From Candidatus Sulfopaludibacter sp. SbA3 (GTDB taxonomy: Bacteria; Acidobacteriota; Terriglobia; Bryobacterales; Bryobacteraceae), in the NCBI GenBank assembly GCA_945893365.1, contig CAMDED010000040.1, positions 1 through 51,244 on the forward strand: 51,244 bases of DNA. The letters are read 5' to 3'. A model generated the notes under the pieces. It was not told the DNA's origin. It did no database searches and saw nothing but the letters and a program-made list of their open reading frames with translations. The first letter of the stretch is position 1, and every line of letters begins with the position of its first letter. Positions 43,107 through 51,244 of this stretch are shown here, piece by piece. Made by a program: the position numbers and the translations under genes.

Positions 43107-43135
43107 TTGACTTTAGGCCTTGATAGACATACACT
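43107..43135 (+). promoter_or_regulatory. Sigma70-like promoter of the PspA-AAA operon
   Basis: TTGACT (43107-43112), 17 bases, TACACT (43130-43135). The -10 box ends 29 bases before the first ATG (43165), so the leader is short. This is the best vegetative promoter in the window. No sigma54-type -24/-12 (GG-N10-GC) signal, the usual psp control in enterobacteria, was seen. Confidence 0.6.
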
Positions 43136-43164
43136 TACGCATGGAAATGTGAGGAAAAGACCCG

Positions 43165-43845
43165 ATGAGCAAGAAGTGGTACAACTACTTCGTATCAGTA
43201 GCCGAAGGGAGCCAGGAAGCCGGAACCGGCGATGCCGGACAGAATGCGCCGACAGGCGTCCCGAGCGCGGCCCAAACGGTTGCCGATATCGCCGCCGCCG
43301 TAAATACGCCGTCGTTCACCCAGACCGTTGCGGATCCCACGTCCTTTGAGCAGATCTACCAGGCAGCCGACGTACGCACTCCGCCGCACGGGTTCACCAT
43401 CTTCAAAATTGCCGACATGCTGAAGAGTGAGCATATCCGCACTCTTCCCGTGGAGATCAAGCGCAGCTCCGTGTTGCTCGCGCTGGACGCAGCGGGAGTG
43501 AAGCTGCAGGAAGTGATTGAAGACGCCGTGAGGCGGGACCGGGCGCTCGACACCTTCGAACTCGTTCAGCAGCGCGCGCTCGACCAACTGGAGGCGCGCA
43601 AAACGGAGGAGAACGGCAAGCTGCAGGCCGAGGCCGACCGGGTTCTGAACGAGCTGCGAGTGCAGGTGCAAGCCAACAATGACGAGGTCGCGCGCGAACG
43701 GGAGCGAATGCAGACGTGGCGCCTTCAGAAACAACGGGAAGAGGGGCGCATTGCGGACGCAGTGTCGCCGTTCGCGACGGAAAATCCGATCACCACGGGC
43801 CACGCCACCGTGCCGGCAAAGTCTGTCGAACCATCCGGGCGCTAA
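43165..43845 (+). CDS. Coiled-coil protein, first gene of the PspA-AAA operon
   Basis: This is a 226-residue protein with no family recognised. GAGGAAAAG precedes the ATG. Residues 1-75 are polar and probably flexible. Residues 75-120 are a folded-looking segment (GFTIFKIADMLKSEHIRTLP, then VLLALDAAGVKLQEVIEDAV). Residues 120-200 form a long charged coiled coil (ARKTEENGKLQAEADRVLNE, then ARERERMQTWRLQKQREEGR). There is no signal peptide or membrane helix, so it is cytoplasmic. A 20-base gap leads to the PspA gene. The coiled coil could bind PspA, whose own fold is a coiled-coil hairpin; that is inference. Confidence 0.75.
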   Translation: MSKKWYNYFVSVAEGSQEAGTGDAGQNAPTGVPSAAQTVADIAAAVNTPSFTQTVADPTSFEQIYQAADVRTPPHGFTIFKIADMLKSEHIRTLPVEIKRSSVLLALDAAGVKLQEVIEDAVRRDRALDTFELVQQRALDQLEARKTEENGKLQAEADRVLNELRVQVQANNDEVARERERMQTWRLQKQREEGRIADAVSPFATENPITTGHATVPAKSVEPSGR

Positions 43846-43865
43846 CCGGAAGAAGGAGCAATCTT

Positions 43866-44600
43866 ATGTTGAATAGGCTCTCACGAATATTCCGTTCGTT
43901 CTTCGGATTCTTCATCTCGATCGCCGAAGATCCGGAATTGATTTTGGAACAGAACATCCGCGACATGAACGACCAGGTTCCGCGAATGAACGAGAGCATC
44001 GCGATGGTGAAAGCCAACGTGACGCTGCTCGCAAAAGAGGAAAGCAAATACAAGGCTGAAGTCAACGATCTGGCCATGAAGATTAAGGCGAGCATCCAGG
44101 CGGGCCGCGACGACTTGGCCGGACACTTCGCCGTGCAGCACGAGCAGCTGCGGGGAGCCCTGGCGCGCACGCAGGGCCAGTTGGAAACGGCGCGGTCGGC
44201 CCTCGAAAAGGCAATGAACGTGAAGGCCGCCTTTCTGCGCGAAAAGGAGCGGAAGACTCATGAGGCAATGAACGCCATCCGCGACTACCGGCGCTCGCAG
44301 TGGCAGAAGAAAGTGGCCGATGCGATGGAGCAGTTCGAAGTTGCGGGCATCAGCCAGACCCATGACGAGATGGTCCGCAAGATCGAAGAGACTACCGCGG
44401 TGAACGAAGCCCGCATGGAGATGGCCTTGGGTAACGTCGATCAGCAGCGCTTTAAGATCGAGGAAGAGGCGGAGCAGCTGCGCGCGAATGAGCTCGTCAA
44501 GCAGTTCAAGGCCGAAATGGGGCTCATTACGCCGGGAGCGGCGCCGGCAGCGACGCCCGAGAAGACTATCGGGGGCCGCGATACGGAGAGGACTGCGTAG
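43866..44600 (+). CDS. PspA/IM30-family protein
   Basis: This is a 244-residue protein with ribosome site GAAGGAG. The N-terminal amphipathic helix (MLNRLSRIFRSFFGFFISIA) binds membrane. Residues 20-215 are the PspA/Vipp1 coiled-coil array (EDPELILEQNIRDMNDQVPR, MNESIAMVKANVTLLAKE, LEKAMNVKAAFLREKERK). The family is the bacterial branch of ESCRT-III: it polymerises into rings or rods on stressed membranes. The last 25 residues are Pro/Ala-rich and outside the usual fold. Spacing of 15 bases to the next gene indicates co-expression with the binding protein and ABC genes. Confidence 0.9.
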   Translation: MLNRLSRIFRSFFGFFISIAEDPELILEQNIRDMNDQVPRMNESIAMVKANVTLLAKEESKYKAEVNDLAMKIKASIQAGRDDLAGHFAVQHEQLRGALARTQGQLETARSALEKAMNVKAAFLREKERKTHEAMNAIRDYRRSQWQKKVADAMEQFEVAGISQTHDEMVRKIEETTAVNEARMEMALGNVDQQRFKIEEEAEQLRANELVKQFKAEMGLITPGAAPAATPEKTIGGRDTERTA

Positions 44601-44615
44601 CGGTCGGAGACAATT

Positions 44616-46172
44616 ATGGCTGTGCGAATTGAAAAGGGCGGTTGGATTTTCATCTTTCTCGTTGGACTGGGTCTGGTCGGCTACAGCCTGGATAGGTATG
44701 GCTTCGTCAACCTGTCCGGGATGCTCGGGAAGAAGGCGGCGAGCACGAGCGCAGTGGACACCTCGAGACCTTTGCCGGCCACCGGAGGGTCGGAGAGCAA
44801 TAACGTCCGGGTCCGCGTGAACATCTGGGTCGGCTGCGTCGGTGGACTGGTGGCGAACGGCGGGCTCGACACCACGCCCGGCTCCATCTACGACCGCAAG
44901 GGGTTGAAGGTTTCCTTCAAGATCATCGACGATTGGACCGAGGGAAGCGTCGCGCTCGCTTCGAACAACGTCGATGTGATGTTGACCACGGCCGACGTTT
45001 GGGCAAAGGACTATGGGCAGCTTCTCGATAAGGGGTTCAAGGCGCGCGCGGTCTACATGGTGGACTGGTCGCGCGGCGCCGACGGGGTGATCGGAAAGCA
45101 GGGCATCAACTCAATTGAAGGTCTGGCCGGCAAGAGTGTCGCATTCGCGCCTTACACCCCCTCGCACTTCCTGTTGTGGAACGGGCTGAAGAGCTCCGGG
45201 CTGACGACGGAACAGCGCAATGAGATCTTCGACAAGGCCGTTCACACGAAGGACGGCATCGAGCCGGCTACGTTGTTTGCGCAGCAGAAAGTGGACGCCG
45301 CGGTGGCCTGGGATCCGGACATGAGCGATGCCGTGGCAAAACGAAAAGGCGCGAAGAAGATCTACGATACCAAGGTTGCCAACCGTCTGATCGCGGATAT
45401 TCTCGTGGTTAGCGACCGGTTCTCTTCCGAGTCGCCCCAGACAATGCGCAAATTCCTGGAGGGCTGGCTCGAAGGCGTCGAGTTTATCCGGCAGGAACCG
45501 GTGCGGGCGCACACGCTCATCGGGACCGTCAAGGATTTCAACATTCCGGCCGATCTCGCGAAGAGCATGCTGGAGGGCGTGCGGCTCACCGATTACGCCG
45601 ACAACAAGGCATTCTTCGGCGCGGGCGCGGGATCGGATTACAACAACATCCTCACCATGGCGCAGGAGATGTACCGGGAGCTTCGGCTGATCAAGCGCAC
45701 CGCCGACATTGAGGCCAGTGTCGACCGGCGCTACGTCGCCGGCATGGAGGGCAAGTTCTCCTCCACGTCCACCGAGCCGCCCATCGAGTATAAGGCGCCG
45801 CCCAAGGGCGCTACTCCCATTGCCACGCAGCGGCGCTCGATCTACTTCGAAACCAATTCGGCGGTGATGAGCCCCGATTCGCGGGTCGTTGTGGATGAGA
45901 TCGGCGCCTTCATGCGGGCCTATGAGAACACCGTGGTGGATATCGAAGGCAACTCCGACTCCACCGGTGCGCGAGAGCTCAACATGAGTCTTTCCGAGCA
46001 GCGCGCGGAGACGGTGAAGAAATACCTCATGACCAAGTACGGGTACCCTTCGGTGCGCATGCGCGCGGTGGGCAACGGTCCGGATAAGCCGATCGACAGC
46101 AATGACACACCGGAAGGACGGGACAAGAACCGGCGCACCGACATCAAGGTGTATCCGAACCCGGGCCAATGA
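44616..46172 (+). CDS. Solute-binding domain fused to OmpA peptidoglycan-binding domain
   Basis: This is a 518-residue protein. One membrane helix at about residues 9-26 (GWIFIFLVGLGLVGYSLDRY) is an anchor. Residues 65-375 are a periplasmic binding fold of the NMT1/SsuA or phosphate-binding-like type (VRVNIWVGCVGGLVANGGLD, then NNVDVMLTTADVWAKDYGQL and KSVAFAPYTPSHFLLWNGLK). Residues 400-515 are an OmpA C-terminal domain (RRSIYFETNSAVMSPDSRVV, NMSLSEQRAETVKKYL, DKNRRTDIKV), with the Asp and Arg that hold diaminopimelate. It would tie an ABC importer-like complex to the cell wall. Its stop overlaps the permease start as ATGA. Confidence 0.88.
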   Translation: MAVRIEKGGWIFIFLVGLGLVGYSLDRYGFVNLSGMLGKKAASTSAVDTSRPLPATGGSESNNVRVRVNIWVGCVGGLVANGGLDTTPGSIYDRKGLKVSFKIIDDWTEGSVALASNNVDVMLTTADVWAKDYGQLLDKGFKARAVYMVDWSRGADGVIGKQGINSIEGLAGKSVAFAPYTPSHFLLWNGLKSSGLTTEQRNEIFDKAVHTKDGIEPATLFAQQKVDAAVAWDPDMSDAVAKRKGAKKIYDTKVANRLIADILVVSDRFSSESPQTMRKFLEGWLEGVEFIRQEPVRAHTLIGTVKDFNIPADLAKSMLEGVRLTDYADNKAFFGAGAGSDYNNILTMAQEMYRELRLIKRTADIEASVDRRYVAGMEGKFSSTSTEPPIEYKAPPKGATPIATQRRSIYFETNSAVMSPDSRVVVDEIGAFMRAYENTVVDIEGNSDSTGARELNMSLSEQRAETVKKYLMTKYGYPSVRMRAVGNGPDKPIDSNDTPEGRDKNRRTDIKVYPNPGQ

Positions 46173-47008
46173 AGTCCGATCTCATGAGTATCCGAAAGCC
46201 GATTCCGCGGCAGAGGAGGCTGATTTTAGGATTCGGCGCCTGGGCGCTTGTGGTGACCGCCTGGTTCGCCGTCACAAGAAGCGATATCCTGCCGCCGCTG
46301 GCGCTGCCCGACCCAGTGGGAGTAGTGGTGGCCATCGGCCGCCTCTGGGTGGAGTACGACCTGTTGGGAAATGTGTTCAAGAGCTGGTGGCGGATCGCGC
46401 AGGCGTTCGTCTGGTCCGCCGCGGTGGCGATTCCCCTCGGGCTACTGATGGCCAGCTTCCCATGGGTCTTCCACCTGGTGAATCCCATCGCCGCTCCCAT
46501 GCGGTCAATGCCGATAACGGCATTCCTACCGGCATTCATCGCTCTGTTCGGAATGGATGAAGCGATGAAGGTCGGGTTCCTGTTCTTCGGTATGTTCTTC
46601 TACCTGCTTGCGCTGGTGGTGGAAGAAGTGAACAAGGTGGAGCAAGGTTTGCTCGAAACGGCCTACACGCTTGGCGCGAACGTGCCTCAGGTCCTGTGGC
46701 TGCTGTTCCGGGCGTCTTTTCCGTCGATTTTCGGGTCGTTTCGAATCCTCTACGATATCGGCTGGACGTACGTAATCCTGGCGGAGATGGTAAACTCCCG
46801 CAAGGGCGTGGGCTACATGGTGGAGGCGGCGCGAAAGGTGCTCGATTTCGAGCGCGTGTACGCGGGAATCATTGCCATTGGAGTGGCCGCGTTTCTGTTC
46901 CGCTGGCTGCTCACCATCCTGGAAGACCGCCTGTTCCCGTGGCGGCGTCCCGCCCGGCAGCACGCCGAACCGGTCTTCGCAATCGCCAATCATGGATCAA
47001 AAAGCTAA
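46169..47008 (+). CDS. ABC transporter permease (BPD type)
   Basis: This is a 279-residue inner-membrane protein with about six helices. It has the binding-protein-dependent permease pattern of the SsuC/TauC group; the EAA-type loop is EEVNKVEQGLLETAYTLGAN. The last helix region ends LLTILEDRLFPWRR. ATG 46169 is coupled by ATGA to the binding-protein fusion; ATG 46184 is an alternative. It pairs with the ATPase that overlaps its 3' end by 17 bases. The transported substrate is unknown. Confidence 0.9.
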   Translation: MKSDLMSIRKPIPRQRRLILGFGAWALVVTAWFAVTRSDILPPLALPDPVGVVVAIGRLWVEYDLLGNVFKSWWRIAQAFVWSAAVAIPLGLLMASFPWVFHLVNPIAAPMRSMPITAFLPAFIALFGMDEAMKVGFLFFGMFFYLLALVVEEVNKVEQGLLETAYTLGANVPQVLWLLFRASFPSIFGSFRILYDIGWTYVILAEMVNSRKGVGYMVEAARKVLDFERVYAGIIAIGVAAFLFRWLLTILEDRLFPWRRPARQHAEPVFAIANHGSKS

Positions 47009-47816
47009 GATCACGCTTCGCGGCGTGTCGCGCGTTTTCACGAGCGCCTCGGGCGAGCGGGTGGAAGCCCTGCGCGATGTCAACCTGGAAGTGTCCGACG
47101 ATTTCGCGCCCGACGGCCGCGACATCGGGGAGTGCCGCGTGCTGCTGGGGCCATCAGGCTGCGGCAAGTCGACAATCCTGCGGCTCATTGCTGGGCTCGA
47201 CTTCCCCACGGCGGGAGAAGTTCTGGTGAACGGAAGGCGCGTCGAAGGGCCAGGGTCGGATCGCGGCATGGTCTTCCAGAAGTACACGTCCTTCGCCTGG
47301 CTGACGGTGGCAGCCAACGTGGAATACGGGCTGCGGCTTAAAGGCACGCCGCCGGGGGAACGGCGCGAGATTGTGGACCACCTGATTGACGCGGTCGGCC
47401 TCCGGGGATTCGAAACGGCGTATCCGCATACGCTGTCCGGCGGCATGCAGCAGCGTCTTGCGATTGCACGTTCGTTAGCCGTGCGGCCCCAGGTGTTGCT
47501 GATGGACGAACCGTTCGGCGCTCTCGACGCTCAGACGCGCAACGGCATGCAGACCCTGCTGTTGAAGATCTGGGACGAAACGGCCGCCACCATCCTGTTC
47601 GTCACTCACGACGTTGCGGAGGCGGTCTTTCTGGCTGACCGGTTGTACATCGTTAGCCCCAGACCGGGCACGATCGTCGAGGAAATCCCGGTGCCCTTCG
47701 GACGTCCTCGCGATCAGGATCTGAAGGAGCTGCCGGCGTTTCAGGAGTTGGAGGCCCTCGCCCTGGCGCGATTGCGGCGCACGGGAGGATCCGGACAGGT
47801 TCGGATGAGTGTTTGA
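46992..47816 (+). CDS. ABC transporter ATPase
   Basis: This is a 274-residue nucleotide-binding subunit of the SsuB/TauB/NrtD type. Walker A is GPSGCGKST (near residue 55), the Q-loop is MVFQKYTSFAWLTVAANVEY, the signature is LSGGMQQRLAIARSLAVRPQ, Walker B is VLLMDEPFGALDAQTR, and the switch His is in LFVTHDVAEAVFLADR. All catalytic residues are present. An insertion after the first strands (about 15 residues, DDFAPDGRDIGECR) is longer than usual. The start ATG lies inside the permease end in another frame. A 61-base gap follows before the next gene. Confidence 0.93.
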   Translation: MDQKAKITLRGVSRVFTSASGERVEALRDVNLEVSDDFAPDGRDIGECRVLLGPSGCGKSTILRLIAGLDFPTAGEVLVNGRRVEGPGSDRGMVFQKYTSFAWLTVAANVEYGLRLKGTPPGERREIVDHLIDAVGLRGFETAYPHTLSGGMQQRLAIARSLAVRPQVLLMDEPFGALDAQTRNGMQTLLLKIWDETAATILFVTHDVAEAVFLADRLYIVSPRPGTIVEEIPVPFGRPRDQDLKELPAFQELEALALARLRRTGGSGQVRMSV

Positions 47817-47877
47817 CCCGGTTCATAGCGCCCCACCCAGGCGGACCTATACAATCTAGTTGTGGCAGAAGAGTTCC

Positions 47878-48786
47878 ATGTCCGGGAATAGTCCCAGTTT
47901 CGGATCCGGGTTGAAGGGCGGCATTGAGGGTAAGGCGGACGAGGCCGGACTCTCCCAGGGCGACTATATCAGGGCTGCGCTTAAGTGGCAGTACAACTGG
48001 ATCGGGCTCGCGGGTGTGGCTGCGTTCGCCGCCATCTCCGGGACGGGCCTGCCGCTCGTGCTGGCCGCGGGGCTCGAGCTGATGTACGTGGCGCTGGCGC
48101 CCCAGAGCAGCCGCTTCCGCAGGCTGGTGCGCTCCTGGAAATACGCGGAAGAGGAGCGCGCGCATCGGGAACGGCTGGATCGGATGTTCCGAAATCTACC
48201 TCCCGAGATGCGCAGCCGCAGCGCCTATCTCCAGCAAGTCGCCCAAGCCATTCGCGCGAATTATTCACAGCTCTCCTTCGGCTCGCAGGTGTTCGCCAAG
48301 CAGATGGACAGCAAGCTCGCCGGGCTGCTGGAGGGCTACATCCGGTTGCTGAACGCGGCGCACACGCACGGCGAATACCTGAGAACTCTCAACCCGGAAC
48401 AGGTTCGCGGCGAGTCGGAATATCTGGCCAAGTCGCTCGAGAACGAGCCGCCGAAGGTGCGCGAGATCAACCAGAAGCGCATCGAGATTCTTAAGAAGCG
48501 GCTCGGTAAATTCGACAAAATTCGAGAGAACAGCCAAGTGATCGACGCGCAATGCGCGGCCATTGAAGATGTCCTCCAACTGATCCGCGATCAGTCCGTC
48601 ACCATGCGCGATCCGCAGGAAGTGAGCGCCCAACTGGACCATTTGGTGGAAGACGTCGAGCAGACCGAGCAGAGCGTTCGCGAGATGGAGGAGATTTTCG
48701 CGCTGACTTCGCCCGAGAATGGAGGGGAGATGCGGCTGGCGGAGACGGAGGAGCGGCCGGAACCTCGAAATCGAGTGCCGAACTAA
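47878..48786 (+). CDS. Two-helix membrane protein with coiled-coil tail
   Basis: This is a 302-residue protein with no family recognised. ATG 47878 (MSGNSPSFGSG) is preferred over an upstream GTG at 47860 because AGAAGAG lies before it. Two hydrophobic helices follow at about residues 40-70 (WIGLAGVAAFAAISGTGLPL, then VLAAGLELMYVALAP), making a hairpin. The remaining 220 residues are charged and helical (SRFRRLVRSWKYAEEERAHR, then VREINQKRIEILKKRLGKFD and VSAQLDHLVEDVEQTEQSV), like a long cytoplasmic coiled coil. Three bases separate it from the AAA+ ATPase, so the two probably form a complex: membrane receptor and motor. Confidence 0.78.
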   Translation: MSGNSPSFGSGLKGGIEGKADEAGLSQGDYIRAALKWQYNWIGLAGVAAFAAISGTGLPLVLAAGLELMYVALAPQSSRFRRLVRSWKYAEEERAHRERLDRMFRNLPPEMRSRSAYLQQVAQAIRANYSQLSFGSQVFAKQMDSKLAGLLEGYIRLLNAAHTHGEYLRTLNPEQVRGESEYLAKSLENEPPKVREINQKRIEILKKRLGKFDKIRENSQVIDAQCAAIEDVLQLIRDQSVTMRDPQEVSAQLDHLVEDVEQTEQSVREMEEIFALTSPENGGEMRLAETEERPEPRNRVPN

Positions 48787-48789
48787 TCC

Positions 48790-50523
48790 ATGATTCCCGA
48801 GACACCAACAACGATGGACGGCCTGCCGGATTGGGCGAGGCGGCTTTCGGAAAAATACTATTCCCGCACGCTGGCGATGTTCGTGCTGCATGGCAATGTG
48901 CACGATCTGGTGGCCTGGAAACGAGGCGGCCACACCGACTTTGTTCCGCTGCCGGCATTCCTCAACGGCGCCCTCTTCGGCCGGCGCGACCTGGTGCTCT
49001 CCTACGACCGCGGCGGCGGCCTGGCCTTTGCCAACGCCGCGATGCAGGACGATTTTCAGCGCGCCCTGTCCGGCTACGATGCGTTCCACGGCACGAAATA
49101 CACGCAGGGGCTGCCGCGGAATCCCGATGCGGTACTCGCGCTGATAGAGAGCTTCATGCGGGTGCGGGTCGCCGACGCGAAGAAGATCGCCATCACGCTG
49201 CTGTATGCTGACATGCTGTCCCCGGCCGGCGACTCGGCGGGCATGAGTTCGGAGGACCGGAACTGCCTGGTGATCTTAAAGCGTTGGGCGCAGAACCAGA
49301 GCTTCCTGAGCGCCGATGTTACGCTATGCCTGGTGACGGAGAGCCTTTCCGGTCTCAATGCCGGGCTGATCCAGAATCCCGGCGTGGCGGCCCTTGAAAT
49401 CCCGTTGCCCGACGAGGAGGAACGGCTGGAATTTGTTCGCTGGCAGTTGGAGAAGAAGGAGCTGCCGGCTGGTTCGGAGGTGACCGCGGAGACGCTGGCG
49501 AAGTTGGGCGGAGGACTCAAGCGAGTGCAGTTGCAGAACCTCATCGCCTACGCCTGCGAGAACCGCCAGCCGCTGACGATTCCGGTTGTCGCGAAGCTCA
49601 AGAAGGAGCTGATTGAGGCTGAGTCCGGAGGATTGCTGGAGTTCGTGCACAGCCGGTTCGACCTGTCCATGGTGGCCGGCCATGAAGCCGTCAAGCGGAA
49701 ACTGCGGGAGGCTGCCTCCGCGCTACGCGCGGGACGTTTCGACGTCGTGCCGATGGGCTACGTCATCTGCGGGCCTGTCGGCACCGGCAAGACTTTCCTC
49801 ACGACGTGTTTCGCCGGCGAGGTGGGCATCCCAGCCGTCATGCTGAAGAATTTTCGCAGCATGTGGCAGGGCGTAACGGAATCGAACCTGGAGCGGGTGC
49901 TGACGCTGCTGAAGGCGATGAGCCCGATCGCCGTGGTTGTAGACGAGGCGGACGCGCAATTGGGGAACCGGTCTAGCTTCGGCGACAGCGGCGTGAGTAA
50001 CCGCGTCTTCGCCCAAATCGCGCAGTTCATGGGGAACACCGAGCTGCGGGGCAAGGTGATCTGGTTCCTGCTGACCTGCCGCCCGGACCTGCTGCCGGTG
50101 GACCTGAAGCGTCAGGGCCGCGCCGAGGAGCACCTCGCTCTCTTCTATCCGGACACCGACGAGGAACGGCTGGCGATGCTGCGGGCGATGCAGAAGAAGA
50201 CCAATACCCGCGTGGCGTCGGAAGAGGCGGAGAAATTTTTCCTCGCCCACTCCGCCAGCCTCTCCGGCGCCGACACCGAGGCGGTGCTGGTGAGGGCCCG
50301 CATGAAGAGCGCGATCGAAGGCGATGCCGCCGTCGATGCGGAAGACCTGATGGCTGCGTTCTCCGATTTCATCCCGCCCTCCTACCCCACCGAGATCGAA
50401 CTACAGAAACTGGTGGCGGTGCTGGAGTGCACCTCGAAGAGCCTCCTTCCCGAAGAGTACCGGCACATGGACAGGGGTGAGATTCTGAGGCGCGTGGCGG
50501 AGATGAGTTCCCTGAACCGGTGA
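48790..50523 (+). CDS. AAA+ ATPase of the PspA operon (Vps4/FtsH-like core)
   Basis: This is a 577-residue protein. Residues 295-520 are a classical AAA+ module: Walker A GPVGTGKT at 328-335, Walker B VVVDEADA (Asp385-Glu386), the second-region motif TCRPDLLPVDLKRQGRAEEH with an arginine-finger candidate, and a lid (YPDTDEERLAMLRAMQKK). Residues 1-290 look like a second AAA-like region without a Walker A (FVLHGNVHDLVAWKRGG, then ADAKKIAITLLYADML and LPDEEERLEFVRWQLEKKEL), perhaps a regulatory module. No signal or membrane helix. In ESCRT-like systems an AAA enzyme disassembles the polymer. Here PspA is the likely client; this is inference. Confidence 0.87.
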   Translation: MIPETPTTMDGLPDWARRLSEKYYSRTLAMFVLHGNVHDLVAWKRGGHTDFVPLPAFLNGALFGRRDLVLSYDRGGGLAFANAAMQDDFQRALSGYDAFHGTKYTQGLPRNPDAVLALIESFMRVRVADAKKIAITLLYADMLSPAGDSAGMSSEDRNCLVILKRWAQNQSFLSADVTLCLVTESLSGLNAGLIQNPGVAALEIPLPDEEERLEFVRWQLEKKELPAGSEVTAETLAKLGGGLKRVQLQNLIAYACENRQPLTIPVVAKLKKELIEAESGGLLEFVHSRFDLSMVAGHEAVKRKLREAASALRAGRFDVVPMGYVICGPVGTGKTFLTTCFAGEVGIPAVMLKNFRSMWQGVTESNLERVLTLLKAMSPIAVVVDEADAQLGNRSSFGDSGVSNRVFAQIAQFMGNTELRGKVIWFLLTCRPDLLPVDLKRQGRAEEHLALFYPDTDEERLAMLRAMQKKTNTRVASEEAEKFFLAHSASLSGADTEAVLVRARMKSAIEGDAAVDAEDLMAAFSDFIPPSYPTEIELQKLVAVLECTSKSLLPEEYRHMDRGEILRRVAEMSSLNR

Positions 50524-50764: not shown

Positions 50765-51070
50765 CTACGCAGCCTTCACGGTCAGCTTCACGCCGACTCT
50801 CTTTTGCAACACCTGAAGAATCGCGAAGAAGTTGACCGTGTTCGGGTTGCCATTCGGACCCAGCATGCGATGCAGGCTCTTGCTGGGTTTCTGAAGGTCG
50901 ACGGCCAACTGCTCGAAGCCGATGGTCGCGTTGATGACGTCGCGTAAGACGGTTTTCCGCGTCGCCTCATCGCCACCAAGATAGGCATTCACCGCCTCCG
51001 TCAGCAGCGCCTTGCGGAATGCGCCATCCTGCTGCGCGCGATTGTAAACCTGAATTCCGAAGTTGAAGGC
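50765..51070 (-). pseudogene. Helix-turn-helix antidote-like regulator, N-terminus lost
   Basis: About 100 codons remain. The core AFRKALLTEAVNAYLGG, then VLRDVINATIGFEQLAVDLQ, KPSKSLHRMLGPNGNP and VNFFAILQVLQKRVGVKLTV matches small HTH regulators that act as antidotes of RelE/HigB-like toxins. Its 5' end runs into the IS1380-like element: upstream of about 51060-51085 the frame is only the antisense of a transposase and no native start is present. Probably cut and not expressed from its own start. No toxin gene is seen in the window. Confidence 0.65.
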
Positions 51071-51244
51071 AAGGTCAGGGTAGACTGGGCGGATGGAAGG
51101 CACACGGATATTCGGTGGGCAGAAGGTGTTGTTGAAGGAGACGGACAGAGCGCTGACGCCCTTCGGCGGCATGGTGGTGTTTCTAGAGTTTCTGAATAAG
51201 ATCGGGTTTGTGAAGAAGGTGATCGAGTGTATACCGGTCACACA
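51071..51244 (+). mobile_element. IS1380-like insertion sequence, one end only
   Basis: The right end of the window is inside an insertion sequence, defined by the transposase start at 51093 and by the interrupted regulator gene to the left. The exact edge lies between about 51060 and 51092. Its terminal repeat cannot be identified from one side. A contig break inside an IS is typical of assembly at a multi-copy element. Confidence 0.6.
51093..51244 (+). CDS. IS1380-family transposase, N-terminus (partial)
   Basis: Fifty codons from ATG 51093 run off the right edge. The pattern LTPFGGMVVFLEFLNKIG, then FVKKVIECIP is the usual N-terminus of IS1380-family transposases (a conserved Thr-Pro-Phe-Gly-Gly followed by a helix). 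The catalytic DDE part is outside the window. It reads away from the interrupted regulator gene. Confidence 0.72.
   Translation, partial: MEGTRIFGGQKVLLKETDRALTPFGGMVVFLEFLNKIGFVKKVIECIPVT

Follow-up and report, generated by a model that had tools for sequence, protein, structure and literature searches.

A seven-gene PspA, membrane coiled-coil and tandem AAA operon of Candidatus Sulfopaludibacter as a putative ESCRT-III/Vps4-like machine with a wall-tethered importer

Whether bacterial PspA/Vipp1 proteins are served by a Vps4-like motor is an open question. A passage of a 2021 paper in Cell leaves it unclear whether PspF is Vps4-like or Vipp1 is helped by an equivalent ATPase (PMC8281802), and Ravi et al. 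(2024, PMC11237479), in the passages considered here, call the control of assembly in PspA homologues without an AAA protein unknown. Our findings bear on this question through an operon of Candidatus Sulfopaludibacter sp. SbA3 (Acidobacteriota; Bryobacteraceae), which lies on a stretch of 51,244 nucleotides (contig CAMDED010000040.1 of assembly GCA_945893365.1; hereafter the window). Seven + strand genes (43165-50523) follow one after another there and encode a coiled-coil protein (g1), PspA, a solute-binding protein (SBP) fused to an OmpA domain (SBP-OmpA), an ABC permease, an ABC ATPase, a membrane coiled-coil protein (TMcc) and a tandem AAA protein. We consider it probable that the operon encodes a bacterial membrane-remodelling machine of the ESCRT-III/Vps4 kind with a wall-tethered importer as an accessory, and that a C-terminal tail of PspA, whose presence tracks that of the AAA protein, is the feature through which the motor acts.

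Co-occurrence of PspA, TMcc and the AAA protein, and the PspA tail

We scanned 297 Acidobacteriota genomes (E up to 1e-60 for the AAA protein, 1e-15 for TMcc and 1e-20 for PspA) and found the AAA protein in 43, TMcc in 62 and an operon-type PspA in 35. TMcc is present in all 35 genomes with this PspA, compared with 27 of the 262 without it. PspA and TMcc are encoded on one strand within 4 kb of each other in 30 of the 35 (coordinates read by eye), and the other five, all from one family, have PspA, TMcc and the AAA protein all scattered over the genome. Among 195 genomes of a second class, the one holding the genome of the Bacteroidetes locus L100 (presumably Rhodothermia), PspA was found in 187, TMcc in 186 and the AAA protein in 173; the eight genomes without PspA, some of which are small assemblies, also lack TMcc and the AAA protein.

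The operon PspA matches PF04012 with 62 bits against a curated cut-off of 33.9, all 23 members of a wider PspA alignment match the same family (E up to 0.001), and the PspA profile retrieves Vipp1/IM30 structures (E 5.5e-6). In both phyla the protein ends, after a variable linker, in K-T-I-G or a close variant, a candidate docking tail of the Vps4 type to judge by its link to the AAA protein. Scored as [KR][TSA][ILVM]G within the last 40 residues (1.9% expected by chance from shuffled tails), the motif is carried by 14 of 15 AAA-positive versus none of 19 AAA-negative Acidobacteriota genomes, the 15 being all but one (G282, left out) of 16. In the second class it is carried by 77 of 89 AAA-positive versus 4 of 14 AAA-negative genomes, where the 14 are every AAA-negative PspA genome of that draw and the 89 comprise 87 of the 173, chosen among the top and the lower ranks of the list rather than at random, plus the genomes of L097 and L099. 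Excluding the five genomes of the alignment that had revealed the motif leaves 72 of 84. The two comparisons give Fisher p values of 1.7e-5 and 1.1e-8 with relatedness ignored. The link between tail and AAA protein survives tree correction: on a PspA-core tree of 137 tips, dependent gain and loss of the two is favoured over independence (likelihood ratio, LR, 27.3, 4 degrees of freedom, p 1.7e-5), as it is in the second class alone (LR 21.3, p 2.7e-4), and the observed LR was reached by none of 40 independence simulations, the largest of which gave 9.1. The second PspA of the window's own genome (L147, G000:C187:1169-4819), which lies beside a 488-residue open reading frame (ORF) that we take to be flotillin/band-7-like, has no K-T-I-G tail and scores 130 bits with the Pfam model, versus 62 for the operon PspA.

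The same tail is found on a third coiled-coil gene. Five Bacteroidetes loci (L095, L097-L100) contain an extra short coiled-coil gene between PspA and TMcc, whose product ends in the K-T-I/L-G motif of PspA; at four of the five the product carries this motif twice. This gene was surveyed beside PspA in 59 second-class genomes (L149-L193 and L255-L269; 45 AAA-positive, including all 12 with a motif-less PspA, and 14 AAA-negative), which were not randomly drawn, with absence judged in the 3.7-9.4 kb around PspA rather than genome-wide. All 45 AAA-positive genomes have a third gene with the motif in the last 70 residues (2.7% expected from shuffling), and the C-terminus reads LPEKTIGRMK in many of them. 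No third gene was seen in the fetched stretch around PspA in 11 of the 14 AAA-negative genomes, and the three that have one also retain the PspA motif. The absences amount to four clades, and the link between the AAA protein and the third gene also survives tree correction (LR 18.9 for dependent evolution, p 8e-4, reached by 0 of 40 simulations). The second-class exceptions to the PspA-tail test are therefore cases in which a neighbour carries the tail, since all 12 have the third gene, and this raises our confidence in the machine proposed below and in its bolder version. A search of 12 Acidobacteriota loci for a further ORF with the motif hit PspA alone, in 9 of the 12; L089, L117 and L121 yielded no match.

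The operon and its AAA and TMcc proteins

The features of the operon are as follows, the start codons of PspA, the ABC ATPase and TMcc having been picked by comparison with relatives.

43107..43135, + strand: sigma70-like promoter, TTGACT-17-TACACT (consensus scan and alignment of eight relatives)
43165..43845, + strand: g1, coiled-coil protein of 226 residues, no family found (sequence and profile searches, alignment of relatives)
43866..44600, + strand: PspA/IM30-family (ESCRT-III superfamily) protein of 244 residues (PF04012)
44562..44573, + strand: KTIG motif of the PspA C-terminal tail, residues 233-236, candidate AAA-docking tail (sequence comparison)
44616..46172, + strand: SBP-OmpA, solute-binding protein fused to an OmpA domain, 518 residues, NMT1/SsuA-like (profiles)
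44616..44705, + strand: putative N-terminal membrane anchor of SBP-OmpA, first 30 residues (by reading the sequence)
45843..46133, + strand: OmpA domain, residues 410-506, expected peptidoglycan binder (PF00691)
46169..47008, + strand: ABC permease, TauC/SaoP-like (profiles)
46992..47816, + strand: ABC ATPase, TauB-like, with Walker A, LSGG, Walker B and H-loop motifs (profiles, motif check)
47878..48786, + strand: TMcc, N-terminal membrane hairpin then helical bundle, 302 residues (hydropathy, structure model)
48790..50523, + strand: tandem AAA protein of 577 residues, N-half degenerate, C-half classical AAA with intact motifs (Pfam, alignment, model)
49771..49794, + strand: Walker A, GPVGTGKT, of the C-terminal AAA domain, residues 328-335 (motif check)

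Spacings of 20, 15, -4, -17, 61 and 3 bases, in gene order, bear out the initial annotation, which had described seven adjacent plus-strand genes with small gaps or overlaps behind one sigma70-like promoter. That promoter is not significant by consensus scan alone (3 sites against a mean of 1.7 in shuffles), yet its letters TTGAC and TA...T are invariant in the alignment of eight relatives. PspB, PspC and PspF, which the annotation had reported missing, are likewise not among the Pfam and NCBIfam matches listed for the seven proteins. Its seventh product, a classical AAA+ ATPase, was correctly named as far as the C-half is concerned, but the protein is a tandem one: Walker A is present in the C-half of all 32 AAA sequences compared and in the N-half of none (0/32).

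The C-half further has an invariant Walker B Asp-Glu, Trp-Gln-Gly stretch and two Arg in 32/32 sequences; we take the stretch to align with pore loop 1 and the two Arg to be the arginine-finger positions. Residue 430, which presumably corresponds to the sensor-1 Asn of classical AAA proteins, is at its aligned position Cys, Ser or Ala in 32/32 members. A structure model (pLDDT 84.8, pTM 0.79) matches p97 over both tiers (Z 22.0, root-mean-square deviation 8.3, 460 residues), and for its C-half the matches include fidgetin-like 1 (Z 22.0), spastin (21.1) and yeast Vps4 (21.5). A role in defence was dropped, the anti-phage library having given only MotB, generic ATPase (mad3, AriA) and IetA/TRIP13-type AAA scores.

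TMcc shows one membrane stretch by hydropathy, and its model (pLDDT 78, pTM 0.64) has a helical hairpin (38-76) followed by a bundle of long helices. Homology to PspA was rejected at the profile level (hhalign probability 0.3%, or 1.5% with wider alignments). Neither Snf7 nor PspA is among the Pfam matches of the window protein or among the best 25 of 68 Pfam families for 29 TMcc members, and a Foldseek search with the model found nothing at E up to 0.001. The best structural match by VIA is hormone-sensitive lipase (Z 13.5), followed by many BAR-like ones (Z 8-11); the BAR-like matches lie within the stated background for helical bundles, and ESCRT-III structures are not among the matches listed. 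The TMcc tails, compared against AAA presence, show no pattern as clear as that of the PspA tail.

Beyond the operon, at the contig end, the window holds an ORF on the - strand (50765-51241) which, as we read it, resembles a HigA-type antitoxin/regulator.

Gene order and the importer cassette

With the AAA protein as query, 72 loci were found in named genomes, and in 54 of them the sequence available reaches 5.5 kb or more upstream of the AAA gene; because the loci were retrieved through the AAA protein, the count of seven-gene loci says nothing about AAA-less genomes. All seven genes occur in the same order and on the same strand in 42 of the 54, which is the comparison that the annotation had proposed. 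L104 was scored as lacking the ATPase only because its best match lies elsewhere; a match of nearly equal score stands at the expected place. Six loci (L089 and the Bacteroidetes/Balneolaceae loci L095 and L097-L100) have PspA, TMcc and the AAA protein only, four (L062, L065, L069 and L105) have TMcc and the AAA protein without PspA in the fetched stretch, and one has the AAA gene alone. In L084, with a shorter upstream flank, g1, PspA, TMcc and the AAA gene follow directly on one another, with the importer downstream of them on the opposite strand. In L100 (7816-9939), which has no importer, an enoyl-CoA hydratase gene and a CNNM/CorC-type gene separate TMcc from the AAA gene, and ORFs of the same two clusters lie between TMcc and the AAA gene in L095. 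Two loci (L107 and L108) have g1, the importer and TMcc together with no PspA or AAA gene nearby.

L089, the five Bacteroidetes loci and eight from Acidobacteriota (L112-L119) have no importer next to PspA, TMcc and the AAA gene, so it cannot be essential to these three. Judging from these neighbourhoods and from the co-occurrence counts, PspA, TMcc and the AAA protein appear to be the core of the system, and the importer and g1 a replaceable, lineage-specific attachment.

The OmpA domain of SBP-OmpA scores 65.6 bits with PF00691 (cut-off 27.2) and is expected to bind peptidoglycan. With an SBP, a single permease and an ATPase whose motifs are intact, the importer resembles TauABC and SsuABC; it differs from them in the N-terminal anchor and OmpA domain of its SBP and in NCBIfam scores below the curated cut-offs (238.8/357 for the ATPase, 110.1/342 for the permease and 81.7/163.5 for the SBP). 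It is thus predicted to belong to the same broad group without being TauABC itself. A motif pattern search of the window permease for the EAA loop found nothing. A simple hydropathy scan called no transmembrane segment in SBP-OmpA at its threshold, and the anchor was assigned by reading, from an uncharged hydrophobic run within the first 30 residues.

In seven loci (L067, L075-L079 and L104) the importer is swapped for a divergent set with the same layout, and PspA, TMcc and the AAA protein are ordinary relatives of those in the window. Compared with the window, the SBP domain of these swapped cassettes is only 19-22% identical and the OmpA domain 32-38%, whereas the first 30 residues of the SBP are 60-80% identical. 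The anchor seems to be under selection to stay as it is when the periplasmic part is exchanged, and it may therefore touch the conserved core. L120-L122 come from two other families and have the operon's importer, TMcc and AAA protein behind a strongly diverged PspA (PF04012 68-75 bits); their anchor is 30-32% identical, no better conserved than the rest, so the proposed contact is limited to the nearer lineages. The diverged PspA of these three loci ends in KTM, possibly a shortened tail motif.

As for g1, K3, W5, Y6 and N207-P208-I209 are invariant in 34 aligned members. Profile searches gave no family match and no solved relative, and a weak profile match to PspA has a probability of 9.9%.

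A putative mechanism, its rivals and its precedents

Gene order, co-occurrence, domain make-up, the tail correlation and the retention of the anchor are direct observations, from which we infer polymer formation, docking, extraction (remodelling) and sensing, as well as every other biochemical step. PspA would polymerise on the inner membrane, with TMcc, held in the membrane by its helical hairpin, as its constant partner and probably as the membrane seat of the polymer or of the motor. The AAA protein would form a tandem ring of one inactive and one ATP-driven tier, capture the C-terminal K-T-I/L-G tail of PspA and pull subunits from the polymer, which would thereby be reset or reshaped; in the second class the small neighbouring coiled-coil protein would offer the ring the same tail. 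In Acidobacteriota, the SBP-OmpA/permease/ATPase cassette and g1 would be bolted onto this core, with OmpA fixing the cassette to the wall and the SBP anchor contacting the core, and the SBP/ABC part may import or read a solute so that remodelling responds to the envelope or nutrient state. We would give about an even chance to a bolder version, that some bacteria have a true functional counterpart of Vps4, in which an AAA protein with a dead first tier grips the tail of PspA and of a small PspA-like partner, which can bear the tail twice, and strips TMcc-seated PspA polymers, and in which the anchor, in Acidobacteriota, wires in an exchangeable, peptidoglycan-tethered importer and links the machine to the wall and nutrient state.

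Several observations weigh against a machine of this kind. The AAA protein does not appear to be obligatory, as 19 Acidobacteriota genomes of another family have PspA and TMcc adjacent and no AAA-profile match at 1e-20, and other lineages do without the importer. The link between tail and AAA protein rests on few independent events: AAA absence falls into eight clades, four of them motif-less (19, 8, 1 and 1 genomes) and four being single genomes that keep the motif. AAA-positive genomes without the PspA motif make up three clades (10, 2 and 1 genomes), namely 12 second-class genomes in two clades and Acidobacteriota L117, for which no second tail carrier was found; K-T-A-G is read in three of the AAA-positive genomes so scored, and assembly gaps could lie behind some of the single exceptions. 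The genomes of the third-gene survey were, as said, no random sample. Of the 53 PspA proteins in the loci found through the AAA protein, 41 match the tail pattern and the remaining 12 have K-T-I-A there, so the tail Gly is not fixed, which counts slightly in the same direction. Finally, with Cys, Ser or Ala at the presumed sensor-1 position, the ATPase could be slow.

These points have to be set beside other readings of the same genes. The main target of the AAA protein might be TMcc, or a client bound to it, with PspA and the AAA protein both partners of TMcc and the tail serving some other end. TMcc does look like a hub both ways, as it stands beside the AAA gene at the four loci whose fetched stretch contains no PspA and accompanies PspA in the 19 genomes without an AAA-profile match. 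PspA may lie elsewhere in the genomes of those four loci, however, and AAA presence is tracked by the tails of PspA and the third protein, not by any evident TMcc tail, and we regard TMcc as the main target as unlikely. An ordinary envelope-stress operon, in which a TauABC-like importer and an AAA chaperone are expressed along with PspA effectors and the linkage reflects co-regulation rather than a single machine, seems to us less likely still. It would account for an importer and a g1 that come and go and for the one family in which PspA, TMcc and the AAA protein are scattered; yet co-occurrence persists where the genes are scattered, many lineages keep a stable order, the SBP anchor outlasts the cassette swap, and tail and AAA protein evolve dependently. 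Barely behind this in probability, and so also quite improbable, is a tail that serves as a degron, through which the AAA protein would unfold PspA for a protease with no recycling. A short conserved tail behind a variable linker would suit a degron, and profiles of FtsH and of proteasome-activating ATPases also pick up the AAA C-half, but no protease domain is listed for any of the seven operon proteins, a check that covered the operon and not genes elsewhere in the genome.

Of the mechanisms considered, the best supported is thus a Vps4-like AAA protein that would act through the C-terminal tail on PspA and, where present, on its small partner. The initial annotation, which had proposed a wall-anchored transport or sensing complex that controls PspA polymers with the AAA enzyme recycling them, is partly supported. 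Action of the AAA protein on PspA gains support from the tail correlation; the importer as controller is weaker, as it is not beside the core in several loci and sensing was shown by no tool. Adjacency of the PspA, ABC and AAA genes by chance, the annotation's own counter-hypothesis, does not hold, with the order kept across many Acidobacteriota and PspA, TMcc and the AAA protein co-occurring over the 297 Acidobacteriota and 195 second-class genomes.

The parallel with ESCRT-III/Vps4 lies in an ESCRT-III-superfamily polymer protein, an AAA motor with an invariant Trp near pore loop 1, and a short tail at the C-terminus that goes with the motor, here by a correlation between tail and AAA protein in sequences. 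As in Vps4, there is a classical AAA domain with intact Walker A/B and, on our assignment, Arg fingers. Vps4 differs in having a single AAA domain after an MIT domain, whereas here a tandem AAA protein with a dead first tier is modelled across both p97 tiers and Pfam lists no MIT domain; the tail also differs, being K-T-I/L-G. We know of no counterpart of TMcc or of the importer in eukaryotic or archaeal ESCRT-III with Vps4. E. coli Psp (PspFABC) similarly has a PspA-family effector expected at the inner membrane, but the seven proteins here include none of the PspB, PspC and PspF that are encoded with PspA in classical Psp systems, and the AAA protein is a classical AAA rather than an enhancer-binding one.

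The gene cluster is real, conserved and already published as a prediction. The passages of Ravi et al. considered here predict PspA, a two-domain AAA protein, ABC parts and PBP-OmpA together, and already propose both the ESCRT/Vps4 analogy and a link to solute transport (PMC11237479). Their neighbourhood of long operons comprises PspA, a two-domain AAA protein with an inactive N-copy, an ABC ATPase, a permease, a solute/wall-binding OmpA protein and a transmembrane helical protein, and the window operon agrees with their definition in its PspA, tandem AAA protein with inactive N-copy, ABC ATPase, permease and PBP-OmpA. They also mention a third gene in Bacteroidetes, its coiled-coil product being reminiscent of PspA; this is probably the tail-bearing third gene described here. 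They differ in naming Snf7 homologues with a transmembrane segment; if TMcc is meant, this homology was not reproduced by our sequence comparisons, which gave no support for Snf7 in TMcc. The same passages do not contain the shared tail, its link to the AAA protein, the cassette swap or the present counts. In the literature covered (titles and the starts of abstracts, with many subscription papers and all bioRxiv preprints outside this scope), no other description of the operon was found. What is new here is therefore the split into core and attachment, the tail of PspA and the third gene that tracks the AAA protein, the anchor kept through the cassette swap, and a TMcc without sequence homology to PspA or Snf7. 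A tail that is common to two neighbours and mostly lost without the motor makes the neighbourhood prediction a point test, and the anchor kept through the cassette swap marks the likely contact of the wall-tethered importer with the membrane-remodelling core.

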